From contig JACRMN010000012.1 in NCBI GenBank assembly GCA_016214955.1, forward strand, positions 124,001 through 188,000: a stretch of DNA of 64,000 nucleotides. The letters run 5' to 3'. The translations under genes and the position numbers were made by a program. Position 1 is the stretch's first letter; each line of letters opens with the position of its first letter. Shown piece by piece: positions 40,128 to 50,233 of the stretch. This DNA comes from Deltaproteobacteria bacterium (GTDB taxonomy: Bacteria; Myxococcota; Myxococcia; Myxococcales; Anaeromyxobacteraceae). The notes under the pieces were generated by a model. That model had not been told where the DNA came from, searched no databases, and was given only the letters and a program-made list of their open reading frames with translations.

Positions 40128-42269
40128 TCAGGCGTCGAGCAGCTCGCGCACCTTGCGCGTCAGCTCGGCGGAGGCGAAGGGCTTGGCGAGGAAGCCGGCA
40201 CGGGGGCCGAAGCGCTCCAGCTCCAGGGCCCTGTCGCTGTAGCCGGAGACGAAGAGCACCGGCAGGCCGGGCAGCAGGTCCCGCAGCGACGCCACCACCT
40301 CGGGTCCGCCCACCCCCGGCAGCACCAGGTCGGTGACCAGCAGGTCCACCCTCCGGCCCGGCGCGTCGGCCAGGGCCCGCAGCGCCTCCTCGCCATCGCC
40401 GGCCTCGAGCACCCGGTAGCCCAGGGCGCGCAGCGGCCGCCCCACGGCGGAGCGGACCAGCGGCTCGTCGTCGAGGACCAGCACCGTCTCGGTGCCCCGG
40501 GTGGCGGGCAGGCGGCCGGGCCCCTCGGCGGCCGGCTGCGTGGTGTCGCCGGCGGCGGGCAGGAAGACCTCGAACTCCGTCCCCTTGCCGGGCTCGCTCC
40601 GGACCTCGATGTCGCCGCCGCACTGCTTGACGATGCCGTGCACGGTGGAGAGGCCGAGGCCGGTGCCCTTGCCGGCCTCCTTGGTGGTGAAGAAGGGCTC
40701 GAAGAGGTGCTCCAGCACCTCGGGCACCATCCCGCAGCCGGTGTCGCGCACCGAGAGCCGCACGCGGCGCGCCGCCTGCGCGCCGCTCGCCGCCGCGGCA
40801 GGCTCGACGTTGGCGGTCTCGATCGTGAGCCGCCCGCCCGAGGTCATGGCGTCGCGGGCGTTGACCGCCAGGTTGACGATCACCTGCTCCACCTGGCCCG
40901 GGTCGGCCCGCACCGGCCAGAGGCCGGTGGCCGGGTGGGTGAGGAGCTCGATCTCCTCGCCGATGAGCCGGCGCAGCATCCGCTCCATCGCCCACACCAC
41001 CTCGTTGAGGTCGAGCACCCGCGGTTGGGCCGCCTGGCGGCGGCCGAAGGCCAGGAGCTGGCGGGTGAGGAGCGCGGCCCGCTGGGCGGCGGCCTGGATC
41101 TCCAGCGCGTCCTCGCGCCGCGGGTCGCCGGAGGGCAGCCCCTCCACCAGCGCCCCGGCGGCGCCGAGCATGGCGGTGAGCAGGTTGTTGAAGTCGTGGG
41201 CCACGCCCGCGGCCAGGCGCGCCACCGCCTCCAGCTTCTGCGCCTGGCGGAACTGCTCCTCCAGGCGCCGCCGCTCGGTGACGTCGGTGACCATCCCCAG
41301 CGCCCCGGCGTAGGCCCCCTGCTCGTCGAAGAACGGCGTGGTGTCGATGAGCACCCAGGCGTCGCTGCCGTCCTTGCGGGAGAAGCGGAAATCGTGCTGC
41401 TCGACGACGCCCTTGCGCCGCCGCTCGACGGCGGCGGCGGCGGCGGCCCGCGCCTCCTCGTCCATGAAGTCGAAGAGGGCCCGGCCCAGCATCTCCTCCG
41501 GCGTGTAGCCCAGCATCCGGGCCATGCGCTGGTTGACGAAGGTGGTCCGGTTCTCGGCGTCGATGAGCCACACGCCCTCGTTGGCCGTCTCCACGATGCG
41601 GCGGTAGCGGGCCTCGCTCTCCCGCAGCGCGCCCACGGCCCGGCCCAGGTCGTCGGTGGCCCGGCGCAGCGCCCACTCCACCTCCCCCAGCTCGTCGAGC
41701 TCCGGCGGCGGCGGCTCGGCGCCCGGCGCGCCCTGGGCCGGCAGCAGGCGAGGGACCAGGGCCCGCACCTGCCCCGCGAGCTGCTCCAGCCGCGAGGTCA
41801 CCAGGCGGCGGATGAGGAAGACCATGAACACCGCCACCAGCGCGATGCGGAGCGCGTTGCTGAGCAGGGCCCAGGCGCCGCTCAGCACCACCTGGTCGCG
41901 CAGCGGGGCCAGGGCCGCCACCACCTCCACCCGGCCGATCTCCCGCAGCTGGCCTCCGTCGGCGTGGCGCAGGGGGTAGCCGCGGGTCAGCGTCTCGCCG
42001 GCCGGGAGCCGGCCCGCCGACCAGCGCTGCCCGGTGTCGGAGGCGGTGACCTGAACCAGGGCCACCTCGGGCACCAGCACCAGGCCGTCGAGGACCCGCT
42101 GCACCTGCCGCTCGTCGAAGTCCCAGACGCTTCCCTCCAGCGCCTGCGCGTGGAGGCCGACGTCGTCGAGCTGCTTCTCCAGGTTCCGGCGCAGGTCGCG
42201 GTAGTCGAGCAGCACCTGCAGCGCGGTGAGCAGCAGCGTGACGAGCGCGCTCACCCCCACCACCAGCAC
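40128..42269 (-). CDS. Membrane PAS hybrid histidine kinase with receiver
   Basis: 713 residues from the GTG at 42269. Two transmembrane helices (about 1-20 and 132-152) flank a short periplasmic sensor; then PAS (about 222-340), HisKA ([13 protein letters not shown], His near 357), HATPase ([24 protein letters not shown]) and a receiver with Asp near 645 (LLVTDLVLPG). An open frame continues 21-22 codons upstream to the stop of the solute-binding-protein gene and could be translated from a CTG, so the true start may be earlier. The gene is directly downstream of that binding-protein gene, a second example in this window of the binding-protein/kinase pairing. Confidence 0.86.
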   Translation of the reverse strand: MLVVGVSALVTLLLTALQVLLDYRDLRRNLEKQLDDVGLHAQALEGSVWDFDERQVQRVLDGLVLVPEVALVQVTASDTGQRWSAGRLPAGETLTRGYPLRHADGGQLREIGRVEVVAALAPLRDQVVLSGAWALLSNALRIALVAVFMVFLIRRLVTSRLEQLAGQVRALVPRLLPAQGAPGAEPPPPELDELGEVEWALRRATDDLGRAVGALRESEARYRRIVETANEGVWLIDAENRTTFVNQRMARMLGYTPEEMLGRALFDFMDEEARAAAAAAVERRRKGVVEQHDFRFSRKDGSDAWVLIDTTPFFDEQGAYAGALGMVTDVTERRRLEEQFRQAQKLEAVARLAAGVAHDFNNLLTAMLGAAGALVEGLPSGDPRREDALEIQAAAQRAALLTRQLLAFGRRQAAQPRVLDLNEVVWAMERMLRRLIGEEIELLTHPATGLWPVRADPGQVEQVIVNLAVNARDAMTSGGRLTIETANVEPAAAASGAQAARRVRLSVRDTGCGMVPEVLEHLFEPFFTTKEAGKGTGLGLSTVHGIVKQCGGDIEVRSEPGKGTEFEVFLPAAGDTTQPAAEGPGRLPATRGTETVLVLDDEPLVRSAVGRPLRALGYRVLEAGDGEEALRALADAPGRRVDLLVTDLVLPGVGGPEVVASLRDLLPGLPVLFVSGYSDRALELERFGPRAGFLAKPFASAELTRKVRELLDA

Positions 42270-42331: not shown

Positions 42332-43156
42332 TCAGGGCTGGCCCCCGGGGTCGATGCCCGCGTCGCGCAGGTGCTTGTCCATCCGCCCCTCCGCCTTCAT
42401 CTGCCGGATCACCTCGGCGAGTCGCGGCGCCAGCGCGGCGTGGCGCCGGTGGAGGTACGGGTAGGTCGGCAAGGTGGCGAAGCGGAGCACCCGGCGCACC
42501 GGGGGCGTCCCGCGGAACTCGGGCGACTCGAGCACGTCCTCCACGTAGTGGAAGTCCAGCTCGCAGAAGAGGTCGGTGCGGCCGGCCTGGAGCTTCTTCA
42601 CTCCCTGCTCGGTGGTCAGCACGTCGGTGATCCGCTCCGGCGGCAGCAGCCGGCCGAGGGTGGTCTCGCAGAGCAGGATGCCGCGCCGGTAGTCCACCCG
42701 GTAGGCCTGCCGGCGCAGCGCCTCCAGGCTCTCCAGCCGCAGGTCCGGCCGCGCCGTGAAGAGCGCGAAGGGGAAGTCGAGGATCGGCTCCTCCACCCGG
42801 ATGAGCTCCGGGTGGGCGTCGCCGTAGGCGCGGATGCGGGCCATCTCGCCGTCGATGGCTCCTGCGGTGACGAGCGCCGTGCGGCGCACCAGCGAGTGGA
42901 AGGAGAGCTCCACCGGGATCCCCAGGCGCCGGAAGGCCTCCTGGTAGATCTGCGTGAAGGCCTGGTTGGAGCGCGAGGGGCCGTTGTCGCCCGCCATGCG
43001 GAAGGGCGCCGGCCCGTCGCCTGCCGGCCGGGCCTCCTCGGCCCGCGCGCCGGCAGCGGAGGCCAGGAGGCAGCCGGCGAGGAGGAGGAGGGGCCGGCTC
43101 CGCGCCGGGTCGCTCCGGGCGCGGGCGGCGCGCTCCTCTCGGCGCAGTGCGACCAT
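42332..43156 (-). CDS. Family 3 solute-binding protein, probable co-sensor
   Basis: 274 residues of the amino-acid-type (SBP_bac_3) periplasmic-binding fold. An N-terminal signal (LLLLAGCLLASAAGARA) precedes the mature domain, with AFTQIYQEAFRRLGIPVELSF, GAIDGEMARI and the ITDVLTTEQGVKKLQAGRTDLFCEL hinge region. No ABC permease or ATPase accompanies it. The next gene is a membrane histidine kinase, so it probably reports a ligand to that sensor. The ATG at 43156 was chosen because GGGAGG stands 5 nt upstream; an ATG at 43174 is possible. Confidence 0.8.
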   Translation of the reverse strand: MVALRREERAARARSDPARSRPLLLLAGCLLASAAGARAEEARPAGDGPAPFRMAGDNGPSRSNQAFTQIYQEAFRRLGIPVELSFHSLVRRTALVTAGAIDGEMARIRAYGDAHPELIRVEEPILDFPFALFTARPDLRLESLEALRRQAYRVDYRRGILLCETTLGRLLPPERITDVLTTEQGVKKLQAGRTDLFCELDFHYVEDVLESPEFRGTPPVRRVLRFATLPTYPYLHRRHAALAPRLAEVIRQMKAEGRMDKHLRDAGIDPGGQP

Positions 43157-43368
43157 GGCGCCCTCCCGGTCCATGACCTCGGATGCGACTATTGGTGAAA
43201 CGGCTCTCCGCTGCGCCTCCGCTCGGGGGTCGAGCTTACCTCATGGGCCCCCCAGTCCCAGCCACCTGCGGCGAAGAGGCCTCCGCACGCCCCCGGGGCG
43301 CGCTGTCGCAGCCTTCCGCCAGCCGGCGACCGGGAGGCTGCGCCGGGGATCCCCGCGCGCGGGGCCGG

Positions 43369-44652
43369 TCAAGGCTCGTAGCCGGGGTAGATCCGGCTGC
43401 AGCAGTCCGGGCAGACCCCGTGGGTGAAAATGGGGCCGGAGCGCCGGGCGAGGTACTCCTCGATCCGCGTCCAGTGGCCCTCGGGATCGCGGACCCGCTT
43501 GCAGGCCGAGCAGATGGGGAGGAGCCCGCGCAGCGCGCGCACGTCCTCCAGCGCCGCCCGGAGCCCCTTCTCCATCTCCTCCCGCGCGCGCCGCTGGTCC
43601 GCCTCGGCCCGGGCCGCCCGGGACAGGGCCCGCGCGCTGCCCACCGCCACCCCAGCCGCCCGGGCGAGCGTGCGCACCAGGTCGAGGTAGCGCTCCCGGT
43701 AGCGCGGGAAGGCCAGACCGTCCAGGGCCGCCAGTCCGAGCGTCTCCCGCTCGTCGGCGACGCGAAAGAGGACGCCCCGGCCCGACGCGGTGAGGGCCGC
43801 GTCGCTCCGCAGCGCCCGCATCTCCCGCTCCAGGTCCTCGCACGGCTGGGCGCGGGGAGGGTACACCCACGCCGGCGCGACCGCCTGGCCGTCGACGGCG
43901 CAGTACAGGATCCGGCTCGGGGCGAGGAGCGCCTGGGCCAGCTCCACCAGGCGGCCCACCACCTCGGACTCGTCGTGGCCGCCCGCCAGGCGAGTGACGA
44001 AGTCGAAGATGGCGGCGTTGTCGGCCACGCGCCGCCGGAGCGCCGCGAGGTCGCCGCAGCCGGGCAGCGTGGCGCGGGCCCGCCGCACCGCCACCTGGAG
44101 CTGCAGCTGGTAGTGGTCGAGCCCCACCGGCGCGATCTCCCAGGGGAGCCCCAGGTACTCGGCCATCTCCTGCAGGTGGGTGGGGGCGGCGTCGTCGACG
44201 CCAGTGTCGAGGAGCAGGAGCCGCTTCGACCCCTCGCGGAACAGCTCCGCCGCGGTCTTCCTGTCGAGGCCCCAGCCGTCGAGCGTCTGTCGCCAGCGGG
44301 CCAGCCAGCCGGGCGTGAGCAGGTGGGCGCCCTCGCGGACCCACTGCTCCACCAGCCCGCGGTTGGCGAGCAGCTCGAAGCAGGTGGCGGCGCGGACCTC
44401 GAGCAGGGTGCGATCGAGCGAGGGCGGCAGCACCACGCCGAGCAGGCAGCCGCCGCCCAGGAGGCAGCAGGCGCCGTGCTCCTCCACGCGGGCCGCCACC
44501 GCGCGGCACAGCTCGTCCCGCTGCGCTGGCGTCGGGGCGCACACGGCCCGGACGGTGGAGACGCGGACCCCCTCGAGGCCCGGCGCGGCGAGGGCCGCGT
44601 CGGTCTCGCGCCGGAGGCTCTCGCAGACGAGCATGGTCAGGTCACCCGGCAT
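43369..44652 (-). CDS. DUF1638-like domain fused to a signalling module
   Basis: 427 residues. The N-terminal about 200 residues resemble DUF1638, a family that I recall as accompanying corrinoid methyltransferases; visible parts are LGGGCLLGVVLPPS and the typical LLTPGWLARW. The middle (about 205-345) is GAF-like, and a short coiled coil leads to a C-terminal zinc-ribbon-like segment with LPICSACKRVRDPEGHWT and GVCPDCCSRIYPGYEP, a tail common in bacterial signalling proteins. No kinase or DNA-binding domain is seen. It overlaps the UroD-like gene by 11 bp. A role in reading out a corrinoid-bound signal is inference. An ATG at 44634 is another possible start. Confidence 0.65.
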   Translation of the reverse strand: MPGDLTMLVCESLRRETDAALAAPGLEGVRVSTVRAVCAPTPAQRDELCRAVAARVEEHGACCLLGGGCLLGVVLPPSLDRTLLEVRAATCFELLANRGLVEQWVREGAHLLTPGWLARWRQTLDGWGLDRKTAAELFREGSKRLLLLDTGVDDAAPTHLQEMAEYLGLPWEIAPVGLDHYQLQLQVAVRRARATLPGCGDLAALRRRVADNAAIFDFVTRLAGGHDESEVVGRLVELAQALLAPSRILYCAVDGQAVAPAWVYPPRAQPCEDLEREMRALRSDAALTASGRGVLFRVADERETLGLAALDGLAFPRYRERYLDLVRTLARAAGVAVGSARALSRAARAEADQRRAREEMEKGLRAALEDVRALRGLLPICSACKRVRDPEGHWTRIEEYLARRSGPIFTHGVCPDCCSRIYPGYEP

Positions 44653-45694
44653 CCGCCCACCTCAGCGGGTAGGTCCCCCAGCGGCGCACCGCCTCGGCCA
44701 CGGCCTGGAGCACCTCCAGGGGGACCTGGAAGGGCACCTCGCCGTGGTGCTCGGAGAGCACGAACCCGCCACCCGGCCCGCCGGCGGCGAGGGCTGCGCG
44801 CACGGCCTGCTCGGCGTCGTCCGGCGTCCAGTGGCGCATCTCCAGGCCGTTGAGGTTCCCCATCACCGCGGCGCGCCCCCGGAGGATCCGCTTCGACTGG
44901 GAGAGGTCGTCGGCCGCGGAGACGCCGACGCACGCCACACCGGCACCCGCCAGGTCGGCGGCGATGGGCAGGCACGGCGCCGAGGCGGTGGAGACGGCGA
45001 CCGGGCCGCGTACGGCGGCGACGGTCCGGCGGAGCGCCGGGAGCCCCAGCTCGCGGTAGCGGTCCGCGGGAACCAGGAGCGGTGAGGCCAGCGGCTCGGC
45101 CAGGGCGACCGCGCTGGCGCCGGCGGCCAGCAGCGCGTTGGCCCACGACGCGCAGAAGGCCTCGTTGACCCGGAGCAGCCGCTCGGCCAGGGGCCGGTGC
45201 TGGTGGAGGAGCTCGAACCAGCGATCCAGGCCCACCTGGATCGCCGGCAGCGAGAAGGGCCCGATGCCGCCCGCCAGCACGGGGACCTCCGCGCCCACCG
45301 CCGCCCGCAGCGCCGCGGTCGCCTCCAGGCTGCGGCGCAGGGTCGGGGAGGTGGTGGGGTCCGGCGGGCGGAGCCTCTCGATGTCGGCCGCGGAGCGCAG
45401 CGGCGGCTCGCCGGTGTTGGGCGGGCCGTCCTCGTGGACGACCACCTCGCCGCCGAAGGGCTCCGCCTCCGCCGCGGCACAGAGGAAGCCGCTGACCGCG
45501 TCGTGGCCCAGAAGCTCCCGGAGCCGGAGCTGCCCCTGCACGACCAGCTCGGCGCTCCCGAGGTAGGCGGTGAGCGGCACGCCCAGCAGCCGCGCGCCGT
45601 GCATGTTGGCGGGGAGGAAGAAGGGGACGCGGTCGCCCTCCCGGTGGCCGAGGGCCGCCGCCACGCGGGCCGCGGGCGTGAGCGCGGCGCTCAT
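44642..45694 (-). CDS. Uroporphyrinogen decarboxylase-like / corrinoid methyltransferase-like protein
   Basis: 350 residues of the UroD/MtaA fold. The N-terminal RVAAALGHREGDRVPFFLP and the middle MGNLNGLEMRHWTPDDAEQAVRAAL match this group. Members transfer methyl groups from a methylcorrinoid protein to a thiol through a zinc site. At the positions where MtaA/MtbA have H-x-C and a later Cys-Gly, this protein has STASAPC (about 236) and SEHHGEVP (about 313), so the standard zinc ligands seem altered. That could mean another metal site, another substrate, or a sensing role. Coupled by ATGA to the corrinoid-protein gene upstream. Confidence 0.78.
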   Translation of the reverse strand: MSAALTPAARVAAALGHREGDRVPFFLPANMHGARLLGVPLTAYLGSAELVVQGQLRLRELLGHDAVSGFLCAAAEAEPFGGEVVVHEDGPPNTGEPPLRSAADIERLRPPDPTTSPTLRRSLEATAALRAAVGAEVPVLAGGIGPFSLPAIQVGLDRWFELLHQHRPLAERLLRVNEAFCASWANALLAAGASAVALAEPLASPLLVPADRYRELGLPALRRTVAAVRGPVAVSTASAPCLPIAADLAGAGVACVGVSAADDLSQSKRILRGRAAVMGNLNGLEMRHWTPDDAEQAVRAALAAGGPGGGFVLSEHHGEVPFQVPLEVLQAVAEAVRRWGTYPLRWADAG

Positions 45695-46341
45695 CCGAGC
45701 TCCTCTGCCCAGGCCTCCACCAGGTCGAGCGCGTCGCCGGCGGTTGCCCCCATGGCGTCGGCGCCCACCTCCCGCCAGAGGTCGCGGTCGATGCGGAAGG
45801 GCGCCCCGCCGACCAGCACGCGCACCGGCGCCGGCGCCGCCTGGAGCAACCCGACGAGATCCTTCACCTGGAGGGCGGCCCGGAGCATCAGGGTGGAGAC
45901 GAGCAGCACGCGGATGCCACCTTCGGACACCCGCGCCGCCAGGGCCCTGGCCGTCATGCCCTGGCCCAGGTCCTGGAGCGGCCAGCCGGCGGCGCGCAAG
46001 GTGGCCGAGACGATGCGCTTGCCGAGCAGGTGGTGGTCCTCGAGGGTGGCGATGGCCAGCCCGGCCCGCACCGCGCGGCGCCGGCCGGTGCCGGGGGTGA
46101 GCGCGTCGGCGAGGTCCTCGCAGATGCGCCCCGCCATGTAGACCTGCGACAGCGCCAGGAGCCCTCGCTCCCAGTCGGTCCCGATCCGCTCCAGCGCCGG
46201 AACCAGGACGCGGTCCACGACGAGGGCCCCGTCGCGGGCCCTCGCCTGCTCCAGGGCCGCCGCCGCGGCCGGGCGGTCCGCGTCGAGGAGCGCCCGCTCC
46301 AGGCGCACCGACAGGTCCTCCCGGTCTCCGTCGTCGATCAC
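45691..46341 (-). CDS. Cobalamin (corrinoid)-binding protein
   Basis: 216 residues. An N-terminal helical cap (about 1-85) precedes a B12-binding Rossmann domain with the base-off/His-on motif: D102-x-H104-x2-G107 in LEDHHLLGK, S149-x-L151 in LLVSTLM, and GG at 178-179 in VLVGGAPF. This is the make-up of MtaC/MtbC-type corrinoid proteins. It is first in an operon with the UroD-like protein and the DUF1638 fusion. A methyltransferase that would load the corrinoid is not in the window. The GTG at 46341 is the chosen start; the ribosome-binding site is weak. Confidence 0.85.
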   Translation of the reverse strand: MIDDGDREDLSVRLERALLDADRPAAAAALEQARARDGALVVDRVLVPALERIGTDWERGLLALSQVYMAGRICEDLADALTPGTGRRRAVRAGLAIATLEDHHLLGKRIVSATLRAAGWPLQDLGQGMTARALAARVSEGGIRVLLVSTLMLRAALQVKDLVGLLQAAPAPVRVLVGGAPFRIDRDLWREVGADAMGATAGDALDLVEAWAEELG

Positions 46342-49570: not shown

Positions 49571-50233
49571 ATGCGAACTCCCTCCCTGCCCCGACAGCCG
49601 GCGCCCGGGAAGCCCGGTGCCGGACATGAGCCCGGTGAGGCCGGTGAGGCCGGTGCCGGACATGGCGAGCCCGGTGCCGGACATGAGCCCGGTGAGGCCG
49701 GTGAGGCCGGTGCCGGACATGGCGAGCCCGGTGCCGGACACGGCCGCGCGGGACACGGCCGCGGCGAGGCCATGCCGGTGGCGGCGCTGGTCGCCCGGAT
49801 CATCGACAGGCACCACGCCTACGCCCGCCGCGCCCTGCCGCCGCTCGGCCCGCTGGTGGCCAAGGTGGCGGAGGTGCACGGCGAGCACGAGCCGCGCCTC
49901 GCCGAGGTGCGACGCCTCTTCGACGAGATGGCGGCGCGGCTCCTGGCCCGGCTCGACGAGGAGGAGTCGTCCACCTTCCCGCTTCTGATGGCGCGGGGCA
50001 GCGACCCGGCCGGCGTGGCCGCCGCGGTGGCCCGCATGACGGCGGGCGAGGAGGCGCTGCGCGACGACCTCGCGCGCCTCGCCGAGCTGACCGACGGCTT
50101 CACCCCGCCCGGCTGGGCCTGCCGCAGCTACCGCCTGGCCCTGGCCCAGCTCGAGGAGCTGGCCGACGACCTGCGCCGCCACCTGGAGCTGGAGGGCGGC
50201 GACCTCCTTCCCCGCTTCGCGGGAAGGCCCTGA
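49571..50233 (+). CDS. RIC/ScdA-type hemerythrin-domain protein with repeat-rich N-terminus
   Basis: 220 residues if started at 49571. Residues about 68-220 are a diiron hemerythrin domain like that of the iron-sulfur-repair proteins ScdA/YtfE: IIDRHHAYARRALPPL, VAEVHGEHEP, LLARLDEEESSTFPLL, TPPGWACRSYR and HLELEGGDLLPR. The first about 65 residues are a low-complexity Gly/Ala/Glu/His stretch made by a 57-bp tandem DNA repeat and replace the usual ScdA_N domain. The ATG at 49772 would give a 153-residue protein with the domain alone. RIC proteins repair Fe-S centres damaged by nitric oxide or peroxide, which fits the adjacent sigma-54 activator. Confidence 0.75.
   Translation: MRTPSLPRQPAPGKPGAGHEPGEAGEAGAGHGEPGAGHEPGEAGEAGAGHGEPGAGHGRAGHGRGEAMPVAALVARIIDRHHAYARRALPPLGPLVAKVAEVHGEHEPRLAEVRRLFDEMAARLLARLDEEESSTFPLLMARGSDPAGVAAAVARMTAGEEALRDDLARLAELTDGFTPPGWACRSYRLALAQLEELADDLRRHLELEGGDLLPRFAGRP
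49613..49740 (+). repeat. 57-bp tandem repeat, two full copies plus a partial
   Basis: Copies begin at 49613 and 49670 and are identical; a third partial copy (CCCGGTGCCGGACA) begins at 49727. Each unit is itself built from shorter pieces, with CCGGTGCCGGACATG and CCGGTGAGG each occurring twice. The length is 19 codons, so copy-number change keeps the frame. In the hemerythrin reading frame it encodes PGAGHEPGEAGEAGAGHGE twice, a His- and Glu-rich peptide. Confidence 0.9.

Follow-up and report, generated by a model that had tools for sequence, protein, structure and literature searches.

Three overlapping genes in the window (the whole 64,000-nucleotide stretch analysed here, from contig JACRMN010000012.1 of a Deltaproteobacteria bacterium) probably form a cytosolic, corrinoid-dependent sensory module, in which a signal would pass from the pocket of a UroD/MtaA-like protein to the state of a corrinoid, and from there through a DUF1638 domain and a GAF domain to an output. 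What is seen directly are the families and folds of the proteins, their residues and conservation, and the order and fusions of the genes; from these we infer that the three proteins form a complex and hold a corrinoid, in which direction the signal flows and what may serve as stimulus. The features discussed below are as follows.

45691..46341, minus strand: B12-binding (corrinoid) protein, 216 aa, GTG start; cap and Rossmann domains (PF02607, PF02310)
44642..45694, minus strand: UroD/MtaA-fold protein, 350 aa (PF01208; 80-sequence alignment; AlphaFold2 model)
43369..44652, minus strand: signalling protein, 427 aa (PF07796; AlphaFold2 GAF matches; tail common to other sensor proteins), composed of DUF1638 (residues ~1-195), GAF (~203-350), a helix and a zinc-ribbon tail (~377-425)
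44068..44652, minus strand: DUF1638 domain with a putative four-ligand metal or Fe-S site (C10, C38, C69, C91), from Cys conservation
43378..43521, minus strand: zinc-ribbon-like tail, CxxC...CPDC, occupying the place of a kinase or GGDEF domain in relatives

A first-pass annotation, made from the letters of the window, had described three overlapping genes here, and the layout held: the B12 and UroD genes overlap by 4 nt (45691-45694), the UroD and DUF1638 genes by 11 nt (44642-44652), and all three lie on the minus strand. A promoter scan of the operon region found no sites.

The B12-binding protein matched PF02310 (E 8e-15) and PF02607 (E 3e-10) above the cut-offs, and it has the cap and Rossmann domains and the DxHxxG, SxL and GG motifs of corrinoid proteins. 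These cobalt-site motifs (D102-x-H104-xx-G107, S149-x-L151 and V177-G-G), already read as intact in the single sequence, proved invariant in 79 of 79 homologues. The nearest NCBIfam families are the MtbC/MtgC-type corrinoid proteins (TIGR02370, NF041607, NF047995), with which the protein shares a two-domain B12-binding architecture and the same cobalt-binding motifs; it differs from them in scoring far below their cut-offs (65 bits against 215 for TIGR02370) and in being encoded in a signalling operon. A RamA-type activase C-terminal domain was not found in the window's genome, an absence that counts against the sensor model, since the return to, or keeping of, Co(I) is left without explanation.

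The second protein belongs to the URO-D superfamily (PF01208, E 1e-48, 166 bits against a gathering threshold of 23.9). Structure prediction, which the first-pass annotation had put forward as a check on the metal site, returned an MtaA-type TIM-barrel fold (pLDDT 95.8) whose best PDB match is MtaA itself (4ay7, TM 0.87/0.90). The nearest NCBIfam family is likewise that of the MtaA/CmuA methyltransferases (TIGR01463), far below its cut-off (96.4 bits against 235.4). Identity with HemE (TIGR01464) was rejected: the score was 32.7 against 303 bits, and the catalytic Asp of the F-x-D-I motif is absent, its position being C72 in the window and Tyr or His in 78 of 80 UroD sequences.

When 80 UroD sequences (the window's and 79 relatives) were aligned together with MtaA 4ay7, the zinc ligands of the latter, His-x-Cys...Cys, fell on S235, A237 and H317 of the window protein, bearing out the earlier claim that these ligands have been lost. 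At the first ligand position 72 of the 80 sequences have His, where the window has Ser, and Ala replaces the first Cys in 78. All 80 have His in place of the second Cys, with Gly-Glu after it, so that an invariant H317-G318-E319-x-P321 motif stands there. Pocket residues E76, S238, K268, H317 and E319 are invariant across the alignment. Conservation of the ligands at other positions had been named as the finding that would overturn this reading, and it was not clearly borne out: no Cys is conserved, although the invariant H317-G-E319 and the mostly kept H235 could constitute a different metal or substrate site. Judged from the alignment, the canonical thiol zinc site of S-methyltransferases is excluded throughout the 80-sequence set, and the pocket of the window protein, which does not have the His kept by most relatives, may work differently. 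The protein resembles MtaA/MtbA (TIGR01463; 4ay7) in its fold and in having a corrinoid protein partner encoded next door, but the His-Cys-Cys zinc site of those enzymes is replaced, and a fused signalling partner is found here where they have a methyl acceptor pathway.

The three parts that had been assigned to the third protein were all recovered. The DUF1638-like domain matched PF07796 (E 2e-10, 41.1 bits against a gathering threshold of 27), and the AlphaFold2 model (pLDDT 90) together with a structure search identified a GAF fold at residues ~203-350 (VIA Z up to 15.9). The search with the full model gave no clear solved relative for DUF1638, GAF matches having filled the lists. The zinc-ribbon tail (LLPICSACKRVRD...CPDC) recurs at the ends of other sensor proteins of related genomes; it matches no Pfam family, and its pattern, LLPICxxCKxxRD...W..IE.Y......F.HG.CP.C, is found at 43378-43521 of the window and at seven other loci (L004, L005, L006, L007, L013, L020 and L029). 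It is likely to be an output or partner-binding element, since 7TM-PAS, PAS and propeller-type sensors without a kinase also end in it.

Four positions of DUF1638 are strongly conserved in the signalling family (C10 in 69/69, C38 in 68/69, C69 in 59/69 and C91 in 66/69), and a further 32 DUF1638 proteins, most of which lack signalling domains, all have C10, H39, C69 and C91. In the AlphaFold2 model the four ligand positions come after the ends of four strands, an arrangement that suggests a metal or Fe-S site. The presence of Cys38 in signalling DUF1638 proteins and His39 in stand-alone ones marks a possible ligand switch between the groups. Among DUF1638 loci that lack signalling domains, within the class searched, 28 of 30 adjoin a B12-binding gene, with no UroD or kinase gene nearby. 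In Phaeobacter inhibens, B12-dependent methionine synthesis requires the DUF1638 gene, which has been placed with B12 reactivation, without an assigned mechanism (Price et al., PMC5764234), and the same role has been stated for SPO2162 of Ruegeria pomeroyi (2025 PNAS, PMC12478193). Because of the adjacency to B12 genes and the role in methionine synthesis, we infer that DUF1638 contacts the corrinoid protein. The P. inhibens protein, which serves a split methionine synthase, and SPO2162 share with the window's domain a B12-gene neighbour and three conserved Cys; they differ in being stand-alone proteins without a nearby UroD or kinase and in having His39 where Cys38 is found here.

A search for the same trio had been suggested, and we scanned 85,000 species genomes (bacteria and archaea) with the UroD alignment as query, the working query being a tight four-sequence alignment; 80 of 152 confirmed matches are listed. 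At least 80 trio loci were found in many phyla of bacteria and in some archaea, figures that describe close relatives only, the search having been seeded with the module's own UroD. The listed hosts include Holophagaceae, Desulfotignum, Geomonas, beta-, gamma- and alphaproteobacteria, Magnetococcales, Bacteroidetes, Chloroflexi, Heliobacteria, Sporomusaceae, Spirochaetes, Verrucomicrobia and methanogens. Since the same trio recurs in so many phyla, it is not a chance association. The B12 gene lies directly upstream of the UroD gene on the same strand in 80 of the 80 listed loci, at a distance of -4 to about +20 nt in 79, and a DUF1638 and/or GAF gene lies directly downstream in 78; of the two exceptions, one is a contig end (L093) and the other has a kinase-type gene next (L130). 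Pairwise distances among the B12, UroD, DUF1638 and GAF components correlate with r 0.71-0.85, which partly reflects species phylogeny. At six Desulfotignum loci (L061, L062, L064, L065, L075 and L094) the UroD gene is followed by a gene for a GAF-zinc-ribbon protein of ~240 aa, and DUF1638 was not found, indicating that this domain is not always needed or is encoded elsewhere.

Within the window's own phylum the trio is rare. Three genomes (G158, G145, G189) have a B12-UroD-DUF1638 order with a kinase fused to DUF1638, and a looser set, in which the DUF1638 gene is short and the hybrid kinase separate, occurs in a fourth (G003) and on contig 15 of the window's genome. A search of genome contigs with the third protein as single query gave no matches. 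On contig 15 (129,600-133,600; L040:5669-9571) an NAD-binding oxidoreductase-like gene precedes the set of corrinoid, UroD-like, short DUF1638 and hybrid-kinase genes, and the UroD encoded there does not have the H-G-E motif.

Sensory modules typically join a constant input to varied outputs. Pfam domains in 58 third genes comprise 49 DUF1638, 30 HATPase_c, 20 GGDEF, 10 response regulator, 1 EAL and 1 SpoIIE, and the zinc-ribbon tail takes the output position in the window, Holophagaceae, Desulfotignum and a few others among the listed loci. The same input is therefore found fused to histidine kinase, GGDEF, EAL, SpoIIE and zinc-ribbon outputs. Gene order and this domain shuffling suggest that the trio is a corrinoid-dependent sensory input module; as far as sequences can tell, it looks like a B12-based sensor rather than a food-processing enzyme. 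Of the first-pass proposal of a methyl-corrinoid sensor in place of a catabolic system, the sensor part is strongly supported by the fused outputs, and specificity for methyl-corrinoid stands as a proposal. No conserved metabolic neighbours of the trio loci were found, the recurring families being mainly response regulators and scattered enzymes.

The MtaA fold having been kept, the UroD-like protein plausibly docks on the corrinoid protein and would hold a small ligand above the cobalt, in a pocket where (H/S)-x-A-S...H-G-E takes the place of the thiolate zinc site. What the UroD pocket contains or transfers would set the state of the corrinoid carried by the B12 protein: methylated, Co(I), Co(II) or blocked. 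DUF1638 would engage the corrinoid protein and turn this state into a change in the GAF domain next to it, which would then drive the output, a kinase or diguanylate cyclase in relatives; the window's zinc-ribbon tail probably acts on a partner kinase or regulator. Candidate stimuli are a methyl donor, a C1 compound or redox. A wider and more tentative suggestion, though quite possibly correct, is that in bacteria and archaea a whole corrinoid methyl-transfer apparatus has been converted to a modular chemosensor, which senses a methyl donor, a C1 compound or corrinoid redox via the cobalt and is served by kinase, cyclic-di-GMP cyclase and other outputs.

Alternatively, the UroD-like protein could still be an active corrinoid methyltransferase, its non-thiol H/E site like that of O-demethylases, and the signalling part would report its turnover, a trigger-enzyme arrangement that we consider unlikely. 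The invariant H317-G-E319 and the His present at position 235 in 72/80 sequences could bind a metal, and O-methyltransferases of the superfamily swap Cys ligands for carboxylates or non-coordinating residues (PMC10418091), but the window protein does not have that His, and no second methyltransferase or acceptor gene is conserved beside the trio. On plasmid pAZKH of Azoarcus sp. KH32C (250000-299000; L182), the trio and two ATP-binding (kinase-like) genes belong to a methylotrophy island that also has fae, fhcABCD, a PQQ methanol dehydrogenase with accessory genes, mch and RuBisCO, and the trio stands between fhc/fae and the methanol dehydrogenase, a context that favors enzymatic turnover and suggests C1 sensing there. 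C1 metabolism as the general context of the trio was rejected, however: the other trio loci have no C1 genes nearby, a PQQ-dehydrogenase match occurs in only 18/49 trio genomes, and close methanol dehydrogenases were found in 6/49. Less likely still is a redox or oxygen sensor in which cobalt redox and the DUF1638 metal site sense directly and UroD is a structural corrinoid chaperone. DUF1638 does have four conserved metal-type ligands and a tie to B12 reactivation, and many hosts are, by their record names, anaerobes or from stratified lakes, but the invariant UroD pocket (E76, S238, K268, H317, E319) would be needless in a mere scaffold.

A CarH-type light sensor that uses adenosylcobalamin is very improbable. 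One element of the published light signature, GxxW (G54..W57), is invariant in the B12 homologues, several hosts are phototrophs, and GAF or GGDEF fusions of B12-binding photoreceptors have been described (PMC11796333); against this, many hosts are non-phototrophic, and a UroD partner has no role in CarH. The EH pair and GxxH are absent (W57+10/+11 is V67-Y68, and the cobalt ligand motif is E101-D-H-H104), and the score to NF052513 is 34.8 against 400 bits, such that identification as a CarH-type photoreceptor was rejected in spite of the GxxW. B12 and UroD pairs are typical of methyltransferase operons, and both MtbC and MtaA families were matched, below cut-off, in NCBIfam. An ordinary catabolic methyltransferase operon to which an unrelated regulator has been added is nevertheless the least probable of the explanations considered, since the whole trio with fused signalling outputs is kept in at least 80 loci, scores fall far below the methyltransferase equivalog cut-offs, no enzyme neighbor is conserved and the thiol zinc site, with its Cys ligands, is absent across the clade.

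We know of no B12-based sensor with a methyltransferase-fold partner. The components and output classes of the proposed sensory module are known, but our search of the open-access literature, in which several results were judged by titles and abstracts, found no description of the input combination, in agreement with the earlier remark that no described system of such make-up was known. It found no work on DUF1638 in signalling and nowhere a combination of UroD, corrinoid and GGDEF, and titles and abstracts on the kinase link indicated no such system. B12 photoreceptors of the CarH kind (PMC11796333) also use a B12-binding domain in signalling, sometimes with GAF or GGDEF, but theirs is a single chain with GxxW/EH/GxxH/GxxxP, whereas the present B12 protein lacks EH and GxxH and is always encoded beside a UroD. 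Mlp clusters (PMC10418091) likewise combine an MtaA homologue and a corrinoid protein in bacteria; they differ in encoding a Ram-type activase and a proposed S/Se-methyltransferase system, and DUF1638 and histidine kinases are not mentioned in that paper.

If the corrinoid-state signal is true, it would be a categorically new sensing principle and would define a class of B12-chemistry sensors, probably light-independent, in many phyla, linking methyl-group or corrinoid metabolism to two-component and cyclic-di-GMP signalling. The carriers include methanotroph genomes, sulfate and metal reducers, phototrophs and methanogens. DUF1638, which has no assigned mechanism, would gain a testable metal-site role in reading or reactivating corrinoids, and cultured hosts (Geomonas, Thiocapsa, Heliophilum and Azoarcus sp. 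KH32C) make the sensor idea testable now. The spread of the trio and the His usual in the relatives' UroD were beyond the reach of a single-sequence reading.

Two more genes follow the trio on its strand, 194 nt downstream: one for a 280-aa protein with a periplasmic solute-binding look and no Pfam match (42332-43174, minus strand) and one for a CHASE5-PAS hybrid kinase (40128-42269, minus strand). These two may serve the third protein, which has no kinase of its own, as output partner. Elsewhere in the window, a 57-nt perfect tandem repeat of 2.3 copies (49611-49744), its unit a multiple of 3, sits in the N-terminal part of a hemerythrin-domain gene (49571-50233).
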